From assembly GCA_028280845.1 (NCBI GenBank), contig JANQKZ010000039.1, positions 1 to 61,680 of the forward strand: a DNA stretch of 61,680 nucleotides. Reading direction: 5' to 3'. Shown here one piece after another: positions 18,288 to 24,143 of this stretch (position 1 is its first letter; every line of letters starts with the position of its first letter). Under the pieces are notes generated by a model, which was not told the origin of the DNA, made no database searches, and saw only the letters and a program-made list of their open reading frames with translations. The translations under genes and the position numbers were made by a program. The DNA is from Opitutales bacterium (GTDB lineage Bacteria > Verrucomicrobiota > Verrucomicrobiia > Opitutales > JABSRG01).

Positions 18288-18803
18288 ATGAACTTTCGAC
18301 CATTGATCTTACGCTCCAATCGCTTCATGGGGACCAATCTCGTGAATCAGGGCCTGATCGGGGAGGAGGACCTGGAGGCGGCCAATGAGCGATTAGTGGA
18401 TTCCTTCAATTCCGGGGAGATCTTACGTCCGCGGTTGCTGGAAATCATGATTTATGAGCTGCATGTCTTGAAGGAGGATGATTTACTGGAGCACCTGAGC
18501 AAGGATTCGAAGCTAGGCCTGATTGATTTAAGCCGGGTAAAGCTCAATTTGCCTCAGGGCGTGACGGCGGAAGAATGCCTGGCTACCGGAACGATCCCGT
18601 TTGACCGGTTGGAAGATCGTTTTTTTTTGGCGACTACCTATTATTACAGCAATCCGGTGAAAGACTACTGGGAGAAGCGGCTTGAGGGAGAAATTGAGTG
18701 GTTTGCCACCAGCATCGAGTCCCTCAGCAGTGGAATGGAGGACCTCCAGGGGGAAACTGGCGGGCCCGTAGGGGCGACCCAGAATGAGGTGAGTGCGACC
18801 TAA
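18288..18803 (+). CDS. Stand-alone GspE/PilB N-terminal-domain protein, copy A (MshEN-like)
   Basis: A 171-residue protein with no ATPase domain. Residues 11-31 (NRFMGTNLVNQGLIGEEDLE) resemble the MshEN repeat of secretion ATPases, which in MshE binds cyclic-di-GMP; the key RLG is changed to RFMG, so ligand binding is uncertain. Residues 86-145 (LPQGVTAEECLATGTIPFD onward) resemble the next module of GspE/PilB N-termini. It is a clear paralogue of the protein at 21855: same layout, shared LEAAN and similar length. It sits between obg and the first pseudo-activator. A docking or sensing role is inferred. Confidence 0.7.
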   Translation: MNFRPLILRSNRFMGTNLVNQGLIGEEDLEAANERLVDSFNSGEILRPRLLEIMIYELHVLKEDDLLEHLSKDSKLGLIDLSRVKLNLPQGVTAEECLATGTIPFDRLEDRFFLATTYYYSNPVKDYWEKRLEGEIEWFATSIESLSSGMEDLQGETGGPVGATQNEVSAT

Positions 18804-18925: not shown

Positions 18926-20245
18926 ATGGGTAAAAGTATCCTCATTCTTGACGACGACGTCGATTTCAACAGTCTCCTGACGGACATCTTTTCACAGGCG
19001 AACTACGATGTGTTTTCAGAGCAAGATCCAGAGCAGGCCTTGAAGTTGTTTGAGGAACAGGGATTTGATCTGGTAGTGACCGACCAGAAAATGCCCAATA
19101 TCAGTGGGGCCGATTTTCTGCGTCGGATCAAAACGATCCGCAAGGAAGTTCCGGTCATTATGGTCTCCGGCTATTTAGACAATGAGACGATCCGCGACTT
19201 GATTAAAGAGGGCGTGGGGGGGGTGTTCCTCAAACCGCTGAATGTGTTCTCTCTGTTAAAACGGACGGCGGAGTTGATTGAGGAAAGCCAGAACGATGTA
19301 TCCACGGGAGGAGACGAACCGGAAAACCGGGTTTCGGCCAAGACAGAATACGCGAGCTCTCTGCCGTTTAAATTCAGATCGTATCCCTGCAAAAGTGAGG
19401 TGAGTGCAAGTTTTGCGAAGAAACTGTTTTCGCTACGCAATTTTAAAACCAATCTGCTCCTGGTCGGAGAGAAGGGAATCGCGTTTAAGGGGATATGCGA
19501 AGACCTGCGTGGGTTCAGCGATTCCGGAAATGAGTTCTTTGTCTACCTCATCAATGACCAGGTTCGCCCGGAGCGCCTGAAACCGATCATTGAAAAGGCC
19601 CATGAGCAAATGGTGGAGCGGATCACCTTTGTTTTGCTGGAGGCCCAGGGGATGGCCCAGGCGGAAAAAGATCTTGTCGTTAAAATTGCCCGGAAGGAGG
19701 AAGAGTACGGAGTGATGGAGATCCCGGTGCGGATGATTTTTTGTCTGCAGGATGATCTGGATACGCTTTATGAGCGGGGGGCCATTGATGAAAATTTATA
19801 TATCCTGATGGGGACATCGGAGGCACGACCGCCGGCCTTGCGCGAATGTCCGGAAGATATTCCCATCCTCGGGCAACAATATGTGGTGGATGCCGTGACG
19901 GAGAAGAACCTGATCAGTGTCCCACGCATCGATAAGACCGGGCGGAACTGGCTAAAAGAGCAATCCTGGCCTGACAACCACGTAGGGCTACGTGAATTGA
20001 TCAGCAACACGGTGGGCCGTATCCAGGAAGACCTGCTAAGCGCTGAACATTTTAAAGCCGCGATGACGGAGAAGGATCCGACGCAGGCCGATCTATCGAA
20101 CGAGATGTTCCTCGATATTCTGGAAACGACTCGAGATGATTATTCCCGCGCCATGCTGATCCTTTGTAATGGTAACCGGGAACAGGCCTCCCGGGCCCTC
20201 GGCATCAACGGCAAACTTTTGGAAAACATCCTGTCCGCGAGATAA
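18926..20245 (+). CDS. Response regulator with degenerate sigma-54-activator (AAA+) domain and Fis-type tail, copy 1
   Basis: A 439-residue protein. Residues 1-120 are a receiver domain with phospho-acceptor D53 (VVTDQKMP) and switch K103. The rest aligns by eye with NtrC-type activators but is broken: at the Walker A place is LLLVGEKGIAFKGI (177-190) instead of GESGTGKE, the Walker B DE is lost (LLEAQ near 238), and no GAFTGA loop is present. GAIDENLYI and PPALRECPEDIPIL (286-315) and a WPDNHVGLREL segment (348-358) retain the family pattern, and residues 410-439 look like a Fis HTH (NREQASRALGING). It is probably unable to hydrolyse ATP or open sigma-54 promoters. It is followed by its paralogue 22 bp downstream. 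Confidence 0.8.
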   Translation: MGKSILILDDDVDFNSLLTDIFSQANYDVFSEQDPEQALKLFEEQGFDLVVTDQKMPNISGADFLRRIKTIRKEVPVIMVSGYLDNETIRDLIKEGVGGVFLKPLNVFSLLKRTAELIEESQNDVSTGGDEPENRVSAKTEYASSLPFKFRSYPCKSEVSASFAKKLFSLRNFKTNLLLVGEKGIAFKGICEDLRGFSDSGNEFFVYLINDQVRPERLKPIIEKAHEQMVERITFVLLEAQGMAQAEKDLVVKIARKEEEYGVMEIPVRMIFCLQDDLDTLYERGAIDENLYILMGTSEARPPALRECPEDIPILGQQYVVDAVTEKNLISVPRIDKTGRNWLKEQSWPDNHVGLRELISNTVGRIQEDLLSAEHFKAAMTEKDPTQADLSNEMFLDILETTRDDYSRAMLILCNGNREQASRALGINGKLLENILSAR

Positions 20246-20267
20246 ACCAGGCGAGATCAAGACCACC

Positions 20268-21623
20268 ATGGCGGGGCGAATTTTAGTATTAGACGACGAA
20301 GAAAATTATGCAGAAATGCTGCAGGGGCTTCTCAAACAGGAGCGCTTCGTGGTGGATATGGCCACCAAGCCGGAGCTTGCTTTGGAGGCCCTGGAAGAGC
20401 GCAATTACGACCTTGTTATTTCGGATTATAAGATGCCCATCATGGATGGGGCGGTCTTTCTAAAGAAAGCCAGAGAGTTTTATCCCAATCTCCCGGTCAT
20501 CCTTGTATCCGGTTTGATGAATACACCGGAGTTGGTTCGGGTTGCCAACATGGGAGTGACTCTGGTCCTGGAAAAACCATTGGATACGAACTATTTCATC
20601 GAACAAGTGAGTCGATTTGTGAAGCCGATGACTGCCGATGAGGAGGAAGCATTTGAAAAAGGAGAACTTCAGCAGGAAGAACCGGAGACAGCTACGCGCA
20701 TCTTGAGCCGTGTGTATACATATCCCAAACGGCTATATTTCCTGGCGGGAGAAAATGATGTCTCAAAGAAATTTCTTCAGGATACCTGGGATGTGGTGCA
20801 ACGATCGCCTTTTCTCTTCGTGACCGGTCCGGTGGGAACAGAGTTTGAGCTGATCCTGAAAGAGGTATCCGAGTGGAAACACCAAGGCGAATTGCCCAAC
20901 CAGTACTTAAGTGCCGGCCAGTTGAAGAAGGACTCGGTTCGAGAGGCGATTGACGGATTATTCAATGATCCTTCGCAGAGTAACGTTATTGCGGTGGGAG
21001 ACGTGTCTGCGACCTCCCTGGATGAGCAGGCTTTCCTGCTTCAGTTTTTACGATCCGATATCGATCACCTGCCGGGTAATGGGAATGTTACATATGTCTT
21101 TTGGATAGATAACCTGAAACCGTTGAATGTCGACTTGCAAGTGGAGATTCGGGGGAACCTGGTCAAAGTGCCTAACCTCACTACCCGACTCGGCGATCTC
21201 GCCGCCTATACGAGCCGGTATCTAAAGGAATTCAGTGAAGAACAGCAGCGGCCCACTGTTCCTGAGCTTAGCCCTGAAGCCCTTAACCTGATGTTGCAAT
21301 ACCCTTGGAATGGAAATTTCTCCCAGCTGGTGAAAGTTTTAAAGAAGGTTGTGCAGGTGATGTCGGATGAACCTCTCCCCTATGAAGCGCTGAAATCGAT
21401 CCTGGTGGGCATAGACTCGCGAGTCCCTATACCGTTTTCTGGCGGAAACCTGGAAGAGGCCTTGATTTTAAAGCAAATCGAGGTGATTGAAAAGTCTGCT
21501 GAACGGTTGGACATCTCTACCCGAGATGTGCTTTCTCGTCTGGGATTCGATGTTTCAGCGATGCCCCCGGATATGGGAATTGATCAATTGGACCTGCTAT
21601 ACCCGGAGCTCTTGGAGATATGA
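20268..21623 (+). CDS. Response regulator with degenerate sigma-54-activator (AAA+) domain, copy 2
   Basis: Starting at the ATG at 20268 (the frame opens earlier inside the previous gene), this is 451 residues. The receiver has D53 (ISDYKMP) and K103. At 182-200 FLFVTGPVGTEFELILKEV mirrors the activator Walker A region but lacks the lysine; at 239-262 IAVGDVSATSLDEQAFLLQFL mirrors Walker B without the acidic pair. WNGNFSQLVKVLKKVVQ (347-363) matches the activator WPGNVREL helix, and 395-427 resembles a worn Fis HTH (SAERLDISTRDVLSRL). GAFTGA is absent. It is a divergent paralogue of copy 1, so duplication probably followed or accompanied loss of ATPase motifs. It may act by binding partners or DNA. 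Confidence 0.8.
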   Translation: MAGRILVLDDEENYAEMLQGLLKQERFVVDMATKPELALEALEERNYDLVISDYKMPIMDGAVFLKKAREFYPNLPVILVSGLMNTPELVRVANMGVTLVLEKPLDTNYFIEQVSRFVKPMTADEEEAFEKGELQQEEPETATRILSRVYTYPKRLYFLAGENDVSKKFLQDTWDVVQRSPFLFVTGPVGTEFELILKEVSEWKHQGELPNQYLSAGQLKKDSVREAIDGLFNDPSQSNVIAVGDVSATSLDEQAFLLQFLRSDIDHLPGNGNVTYVFWIDNLKPLNVDLQVEIRGNLVKVPNLTTRLGDLAAYTSRYLKEFSEEQQRPTVPELSPEALNLMLQYPWNGNFSQLVKVLKKVVQVMSDEPLPYEALKSILVGIDSRVPIPFSGGNLEEALILKQIEVIEKSAERLDISTRDVLSRLGFDVSAMPPDMGIDQLDLLYPELLEI

Positions 21624-21854: not shown

Positions 21855-22352
21855 ATGATACAACATATGCTTATGCGGGGAAATCGTTCCCTGGGCGTGG
21901 CTCTCCTCCAGGGTGGATTAATATCCAATGAAGATCTGGAAGCGGCGAACCATTTTTTCTTATCAGCATTAAAGGATGGTAAAGGCACAGATAGTTCGCT
22001 TTTGAAGTCCCTGCTTTATGATGTGAAAGCGCTGTCTGAACAGGAGTTGATCGAATACCAGATTTCCCAGTCCGGATTGAACTACATTCCCCTGAACAAT
22101 TACCATATACGACCGACTTGGTTGACGGAGGATCTACTCGAGCTCGCCCTGGCCACGCGAACCCTTCCCATAGACCTGGTCGAGGATACCATTTTTTTCG
22201 CATCGGCTTACAATCTCAGCACGCCAGTGGTCCAAACCTGGGAAGAACAATTCAAGGGCCAACCGCTCTGGTTTGTGAGCAAGCTTGAAGATCTGGAAAA
22301 TACAGTTTATCGCTTGAAAGAGGAATTAGTTCCAGAGCCGGTGAGCGCTTAA
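21855..22352 (+). CDS. Stand-alone GspE/PilB N-terminal-domain protein, copy B (MshEN-like)
   Basis: A 165-residue protein starting at the ATG at 21855 by alignment with copy A (18288); a TTG at 21822 would add 11 residues. Residues 10-31 (RSLGVALLQGGLISNEDLEA) are close to the MshEN motif RLGxxLLxxGLIxxxxLxxAL, closer than in copy A. The second half (LTEDLLELALATRTLPIDLVEDTIFFASAY) resembles the GspE-N module, and no Walker motifs follow. It ends 18 bp before the GspE/PilB ATPase gene, which suggests that it works with that ATPase. Cyclic-di-GMP binding is a hypothesis from the motif. Confidence 0.72.
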   Translation: MIQHMLMRGNRSLGVALLQGGLISNEDLEAANHFFLSALKDGKGTDSSLLKSLLYDVKALSEQELIEYQISQSGLNYIPLNNYHIRPTWLTEDLLELALATRTLPIDLVEDTIFFASAYNLSTPVVQTWEEQFKGQPLWFVSKLEDLENTVYRLKEELVPEPVSA

Positions 22353-22370
22353 GACACCTGATCTCCAATT

Positions 22371-24143
22371 ATGGCATTAGCACGCATCCAGACAAGAATC
22401 ATTAACCAGCTCCGGGACATGGGCCGGTTGAATGAGGATCAGGTTGAAACCATCTGCTCAAGCCCTGAGGAATTGTCGGGTGAGGAAGTGGATGAGTTGC
22501 TACGCAAGGACTATAAGGTATCCGATTTCCAAATACTGGTGGCGAAGAGCCGGATCTTTGATCTCAAACCCTTTAATGTCCGCAATGCTATAGTGGACGA
22601 CCGAACCTATGAGCTCTTAACCAAAGATTTTTGTAAGGAAAATCTAGTCATTCCGTTGGGCGTAGTGGGGGATTACATCATTGTCGTTTTATCAAATCCT
22701 TTCAATTTACATGTTACGGCAAAAATTGCTGAGATCACCAAACGCAAAGTATCCATCCTGCTCGGAATGGAAGATGAAATCCGGACCAAGTTGGAGGGTG
22801 AGGAAAAGGCACAAAGCCAGGTTGGGTTTGGAGATGTGGTGGAAGCGCTCGGGAATGAGTTCACCGTAGAGGAGGAATCCCTGAGTGAGGATGATTTTGG
22901 GGATGAAGACTCCGGGCCCATCATCCAGTTGGCCAACCGTATCATTGAAGAGGCATATTACAGCGGAGGTTCAGATATTCATGTCGATCCCTTTGAAAAT
23001 GACACTCGCATTCGAGTCCGGGTGGATGGAGTCCTACAGGAAAAGCTGCGCATTCCCAAGAAGGTATCCGGGGCTCTTCTGGCGCGCTTCAAGGTGATGT
23101 CTAATCTGGATATTGCGGAGAAACGTTTGCCCCAGGATGGGCGTATCGTCTTCAAGCAGTTTAACCGACGCGGTCTCGATGTGGATCTCCGGGTGTCGAC
23201 GGCCCCGCTGAATCACGGTGAAGGGGCGGTCATGCGTCTCCTGGATAAGCAGAAATCTACTTTGCCGCTCGAAATGCTGGGCTACTCACAAGATAACCTT
23301 TCTGTTTATCGCGAACTGATCCAACGTCCCTATGGCATGATTCTGCACTGTGGTCCGACGGGTTCGGGGAAGTCGATGACCTTATATTCGGCGCTGAATG
23401 AGATCAATAGCCCGGAGGTTTGTATCCGAACCGCGGAGGACCCCATTGAGTATACGCTACCGGGTTTGGCTCAAATGCAGATGGCCCCCAAAATCGGGCT
23501 AACCTTTGCGACCGCACTAAGAGCCTTCTTGCGGCAGGATCCGGACATCATTCTGGTTGGAGAAATCCGGGACCGGGAAACGGCTGGGATTGCCGTGGAG
23601 GCTGCGCTGACGGGACATATGTTATTCAGTACGCTTCACACCAATGATGCGCCTTCGACAGTTTCGCGCCTGACTGAGATGGAGATTGAGCCCTTTATGA
23701 TTTCAGCCTCCCTGGTGTGTGTGTGTGCCCAGCGACTTATGCGCCGCGTCAATAAATCGACCAAGGTGGCCTATGACCCGGAAGGGAATGAAAAAGAAAT
23801 CATTGAGCGGGCGATCGGTTGGACGGGTACCATATACCGGGCTTCTGAGGAACTGGATAATCCGGCGGGTCCTCCATATAAGGGCCGGGTTGGGGTTCAT
23901 GAATTGATGGCCACCTCGGAGGAGTTGATTAAAGGAATCAATGCAGGCTTGGAAGCGGCGGCATTGAAGGCCATTGCTGTGCGCAATGGGATGAACACCC
24001 TTCATGCGGATAGTATGCTGAAAGTGAAAGAGGGAATCACTACCATGGAAGAAGCCCTTGGCACGATTCCGCCAGATCTTGAGGATGTGGAAGCGCTGCG
24101 GAATTCTGAAGCTGACCTGTTTTCCGCTCCCGCAGCCTCTTAA
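22371..24143 (+). CDS. GspE/PilB-type secretion/pilus assembly ATPase
   Basis: Cytoplasmic hexameric ATPase for a type II secretion system or type IV pilus, 590 residues. The N-terminal module (about 50-140) is GspE-N-like; the linker at 165-182 is very acidic. The catalytic part has [13 protein letters not shown] (Asp box region), Walker A GPTGSGKS (328-335), Walker B ILVGEIRD (394-401) and His box [10 protein letters not shown] (418-427). The four-cysteine zinc site usual between His box and C-terminus is absent: only C450 and C452 are seen. No pilC, pilT or gsp core genes lie nearby; the only other pilus-like gene in the window is the pseudopilin at 45834. It closes the 18288-24143 cluster. 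Confidence 0.9.

Follow-up and report, generated by a model that had tools for sequence, protein, structure and literature searches.

The order Opitutales carries a set of response regulators that are derived from sigma-54 activators and are ATPase-dead. Two of them, named here A and B, are encoded in tandem in the window, a 61,680-nucleotide stretch of DNA from an Opitutales bacterium, and sequence comparison showed that their degenerate condition is an old one, kept by purifying selection throughout the order. The evidence leans towards A and B acting as phospho-switched, non-transcriptional adaptors of the type IV pilus machine. Searches of open-access literature turned up no account of regulators of this kind in Opitutales. 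The features of the locus are listed in Table 1.

Table 1. Features of the A/B locus in the window
Feature	Position	Strand	Evidence
Protein A, 439 aa: receiver, degenerate sigma-54-activator-type AAA+, degenerate Fis helices	18926..20245	+	ORF, Pfam, AlphaFold, Foldseek, alignment
Receiver domain of A; D53, S81, K103 intact	18926..19285	+	Pfam, alignment
Pseudo-AAA+ domain of A; without GAFTGA loop, Walker B, arginine finger	19373..20065	+	alignment, Foldseek
P-loop remnant of A, GEKGIAFK; F187 at Walker lysine position	19466..19489	+	alignment
C-terminus of A, Fis-like; no net positive charge on the recognition helix	20084..20242	+	alignment, AlphaFold
Protein B, 451 aa: receiver, pseudo-AAA+, vestigial Fis region	20268..21623	+	ORF, Pfam, AlphaFold, Foldseek, alignment
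Receiver domain of B; D53, S81, K103 intact	20268..20627	+	Pfam, alignment
Pseudo-AAA+ domain of B	20721..21422	+	alignment, Foldseek
P-loop remnant of B, GPVGTEFE; F193 at Walker lysine position	20826..20849	+	alignment
s1, stand-alone protein similar to the N1D/MshEN domain at the N-terminus of pilus extension ATPases	18288..18803	+	profile search
s2, s1 paralogue between B and the pilB-type gene	21855..22352	+	ORF call from TTG 21822; start uncertain
590-aa assembly ATPase of PilB/GspE type; Walker motifs intact, partnership with A/B conserved	22371..24143	+	Pfam, sequence, neighbourhoods

The first-pass annotation had described a tandem pair of response regulators with intact receivers at 18926-21623, and two open frames with conserved D53 and K103 were indeed found there. 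A longer ORF for B begins at 20169 and overlaps A, but the alignment places the true start of B at the ATG at 20268, because all homologues align there. Both proteins matched Pfam Response_reg (E = 4e-23 for A and 1e-20 for B), and by alignment both carry the phospho-accepting Asp, the Thr/Ser and the Lys of two-component response regulators, in the form of D53, S81 and K103. These residues were conserved among the 68 homologues described below (D in 67/68, Ser in 68/68 and Lys in 68/68); an A homologue in genome G005 has E instead of the phospho-aspartate.

The fold of the remaining parts was analyzed by profile and structure comparison. For the sigma-54-activator lid (Pfam AAA_lid_14), B scored 35.5 bits and A fell slightly short of the cut-off of 27 with 26.4 bits; Sigma54_activ_2 gave a sub-threshold match in A. 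The AlphaFold models (mean pLDDT 88.9 for A and 86.9 for B) matched NtrX, NtrC1, NtrC4 and VpsR over nearly their full length in Foldseek (2.4e-23 for A and 5e-20 for B), and the matches of the AAA+/lid fold included PspF. The large full-length rmsd arises because the domains are hinged; the AAA+ part of A alone gave a TM score of 0.74 on the target NtrC1, with an rmsd of 3.4. The VIA-align lists consisted mostly of receiver domains, but for A the full-length NtrC1, NtrC4 and NtrX were still on top. Judged from these models, A and B are response regulators whose AAA+ domain has the fold of sigma-54 activators. The NtrC-type layout proposed in the first-pass annotation was thus recovered, and an unrelated output fold was not seen. 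The Fis tail that had been assigned to A stood as a fold, since the Fis-type helices are partly retained in its AlphaFold model; of the Fis-like end assigned to B, a degenerate helix pair is all that remains.

Homologues (38 A and 30 B proteins) were collected from related genomes and a scan of GTDB genomes, and were aligned with intact activators, mostly from the same genome, as the reference (seven in the comparison set). All strong matches came from Opitutales (Puniceicoccaceae, Cerasicoccus, Coraliomargarita and uncultured relatives), and in a phylum-wide search of 388 genomes clear A homologues were confined to this order. The Walker A lysine was present in 0/68 A/B homologues, whereas GxxGxGK was found in 7/7 intact activators, and GAFTGA was likewise present in 0/68. 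The Walker B aspartate was missing in A and B when aligned with intact activators. The arginine finger and sensor II arginine were missing in A and B of the window, and generally so among the homologues. The span from Walker A to Walker B was shorter by about 14 residues at the position of the GAFTGA loop, with a similar deletion in A and B. In contrast, the comparison activators keep the Walker lysine, Walker B, GAFTGA, the arginine finger and the sensor II arginine. The D and W residues of the lid were kept nearly throughout the A/B homologues. The alignment therefore bears out the absence of the Walker A lysine, the Walker B pair and GAFTGA that had been read from the two proteins, and loss of ATPase activity in A and B is practically certain.

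The retained AAA+/lid fold, in a genome that holds rpoN and several intact activators, would fit a role of A and B as dead subunits in mixed rings, dampening or gating intact sigma-54 activators. However, the interface for nucleotide and neighbouring subunits includes the arginine finger and the sensor II arginine, both of which are lost, and the neighbours of A and B are pilus-type genes with no activator among them, genome G022 being the sole exception. We consider such mixed rings highly improbable.

Matches from genomes without A/B revealed a further family of response regulators, family D (L149-L152, L154, L155, L157, L208 and L209; for example L151:4356-5687). In its members the P-loop is intact (lysine in 8/9), but GAFTGA is missing, Walker B is broken and the net charge of the Fis region is negative. 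Two other response-regulator-like proteins without P-loop or GAFTGA, both from genome G049 (L156:3918-5120 and L160:4010-5350), were assigned to none of A, B and D.

Selection was estimated by the Nei-Gojobori method on pairs of close relatives, which are not independent of one another; dN/dS was 0.08 for the receiver, 0.14 for the AAA part and 0.25 for the C-terminus of A, 0.05, 0.29 and 0.37 for the same parts of B, and 0.04 for pilB. The AAA and C-terminal parts of A and B thus evolve faster than the receivers, and all parts are under purifying selection. Local decay was rejected on the order-wide conservation, on dN/dS values far below 1 and on the absence of the Walker lysine and GAFTGA from all 68 homologues. 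Homologues outside this strain with intact motifs, which would mean local decay, were looked for and none was found among the 68. The claim of the first-pass annotation that an ATPase-independent function is maintained is supported by these results, among them the dN/dS check that it had proposed, together with the kept AAA+ fold.

That the receivers are the most constrained part (0.05-0.08) would also suit a role of A and B as phosphate sinks, in which only the receivers would be needed and the remainder would be ballast in slow decay. This role is very unlikely, since the AAA values of 0.14 (A) and 0.29 (B) indicate clear purifying selection, the AAA frames are open in nearly every homologue with a confident predicted fold, and decaying frames would not have stayed intact through so much divergence.

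Homology between A and B extends along the entire proteins (hhalign 100%, 419 columns, 19% identity), and most of the lineage has both. A maximum-likelihood tree recovered A, B, family D and the intact activators as one group each, and a 100/100 branch split A and B from D and the intact activators, a grouping of A with B that long-branch attraction could also produce. Because A and B group together and share a similar loop deletion, a single, older motor loss that preceded the separation of A from B is, when the tree is rooted within the intact proteins, the simpler account of the sequences; we offer it as a preference and not as proof. Two parallel losses after a duplication had been suggested previously, and that suggestion finds no support in proteins that are only about 20% identical, are both widespread, lie on the same side of the 100/100 branch and have similar loop deletions.

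The mean net charge of the Fis region was -1.2 in A and -3.1 in B, compared with +4.9 in the intact activators of the same genome and +5.2 in a wider set of canonical activators. The recognition helix contained on average 0.7 basic residues in A and 0.4 in B, compared with 3.1 in the intact activators. As read from the sequences, the positive charge of the Fis helix is lost in A and B as well, which is a new observation; the earlier reading of this locus had missed both the degenerate DNA-binding helix and the operon that points to a type IV pilus. Weak DNA binding by A may persist, as the Fis-type fold remains in its model. At their C-terminal end, B homologues often carry a conserved LYPELL-like motif (window 21594-21620), and the last residues of some intact activators in Opitutales are WPEL.

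These charges bear on the main rival explanation, namely that A and B are still transcription factors, ATP-free NtrC-like regulators acting at sigma-70 promoters, perhaps those of pilus genes. VpsR of Vibrio cholerae is among the full-length Foldseek matches, A keeps a Fis-like helical fold, and the GAFTGA-less NtrC proteins of Caulobacter and Rhodobacter capsulatus act on sigma-70 promoters (PMC10274813). VpsR and the GAFTGA-less NtrC, NtrX and HupR resemble A and B in being activator-like without GAFTGA. However, the known examples still bind DNA, and both NtrC proteins continue to require the nucleotide site. GAFTGA-less NtrC retains its Walker motifs (PMC10274813), in which it resembles family D with its P-loop and differs from A and B. 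In A and B the recognition helix has few basic residues and the Fis region is net negative; because this charge is lost, regulation through DNA at sigma-70 promoters is unlikely. In promoter scans of the window, the sigma-54 consensus gave four matches with two mismatches, below chance and none at the locus, and the sigma-70 scan was at chance level.

Next, the neighbourhood of A and B was analyzed. The conserved operon order was obgE-s1-A-B-(s2)-pilB. In the scan of GTDB genomes, A-B-pilB occurred in this order in 27/41 Opitutales loci, and s1 usually lay just upstream of A, often preceded by obgE (several genomes). An s profile searched against all PDB sequences had its best matches in the N-terminal domains of PilF (4e-5), PilB (2e-4) and MshE (0.0075). 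Pfam MshEN matched 2/12 s members, short of significance at E = 0.012 or weaker, and hhalign of s1/s2 against the N-terminus of the pilB of the locus was not significant (2% probability). The pilB of the locus belongs to a clade distinct from the canonical pilB-pilT cluster of the genome. Elsewhere in the window's own genome, a third s copy (L143:7157-7798) lies beside a paralogue of pilB, in a cluster (L143:5357-10625) that also has several genes with leader sequences of the pilin type; this clustering supports a pilus-type role for the pilB clade. Since pilC or pilin genes were not seen beside the locus pilB in most genomes, we infer the particular pilus-like machine that it serves.

Several loci departed from the usual layout. 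Three loci of one family lack B and have a receiver-only copy of about 122 aa before A (L023:9754-10122, L025:9485-9856 and L024:2938-3306). In Cerasicoccus-like lineages, an unknown protein of about 223 aa lies between A and B (L015:9149-9823, L073:7324-7992 and L074:7356-8024). In G022, an intact NtrC-type activator (L026:8034-9398) adjoins A where B would be.

The distribution of these genes was compared in 52 relatives. All genomes with the pilB clade carried A/B or D (22/22), whereas those without it rarely did (2/30; G021 and G039, carrying A), which gave a Fisher value of 1e-12 with kin treated as independent and with the co-occurrence confounded by shared ancestry within one order. Both A/B and D were found only in G008 and G046. 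A pilC-type gene lay directly upstream of D in 9/9 cases, followed after D by carB in five; in the genome from which the window comes, pilC and carB occur together and D is missing. The association with pilB might be an old operon inheritance, with A and B regulating something unrelated; obgE, an unrelated housekeeping gene, is also at the locus in several genomes, and in G013 and G041 obgE-s-pilB occurs without A/B in between. However, A, B and pilB are all retained where they are not adjacent (on other contigs or in other places in G001, G008, G009 and G022), and genomes that have the pilB clade but not A/B carry D beside pilC. Such inheritance, with an unrelated function of A and B, is quite unlikely.

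In A and B, the output domain is an inactive AAA+ module of sigma-54-activator ancestry. On the favoured reading of the two proteins as pilus adaptors, a kinase encoded elsewhere would phosphorylate the receiver and so change how the pseudo-AAA+ domain is shaped or assembled; this domain would then bind a protein and not a promoter. An output through protein contact is suggested because the ATP site, the sigma-54 loop and the charge of the DNA helix are lost while the receiver is maintained. The likeliest target, because of gene order and co-occurrence, would be the neighbouring type IV pilus-type extension machine, either the PilB-type ATPase or s1/s2, and the A/B pair would tune pilus assembly post-translationally. 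We infer this pilus target as a well-supported hypothesis. Family D, with its P-loop, without GAFTGA and located after pilC, might be a parallel solution in genomes mostly without A/B. It is possible, and we propose it tentatively, that within a single order the sigma-54-activator module was converted on two occasions, in A/B next to pilB and in D next to pilC, into a phosphorylation-switched pseudo-ATPase that has no role in transcription and docks on the extension machine of the type IV pilus. Motor loss would then still be visible at two stages, with GAFTGA and Walker B gone but the P-loop kept in D, and the P-loop gone as well in A/B.

A and B share with the NtrC/PilR-type sigma-54 activators (bEBP) the receiver, the AAA+ domain with lid and the Fis-type end, in the same length and order, and PilR also acts in pilus regulation. 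However, A and B have no ATP site, GAFTGA or arginine finger, and their DNA helix is without positive charge. Direct binding to the PilB motor has been reported or proposed for the cyanobacterial response regulator PixE (PMC7690835). PixE and other PATAN-CheY response regulators are thus proposed to act directly on PilB, as we propose for A and B, but their output is a PATAN domain and not a pseudo-AAA+ domain, and no homology is claimed beyond the receiver. Control of PilB by PilZ-FimX and MshEN is also post-translational control of the extension ATPase, and s1/s2 resemble the MshEN/N1D part; the A/B locus differs in its stand-alone N1D-like proteins and pseudo-activators. The searched passages of a 2024 review of PilB cofactors make no mention of such regulators (PMC11656802).

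AAA+ activators are commonly taken to be ATP-driven transcription machines. If the proposed role is true, the AAA+ activator module would be reusable as a pure signalling scaffold, and there would be a direct two-component route to the pilus motor in Verrucomicrobiota, in which pilus control has been little studied. The genes are carried by the cultured genera Cerasicoccus and Coraliomargarita, which makes the hypothesis testable.
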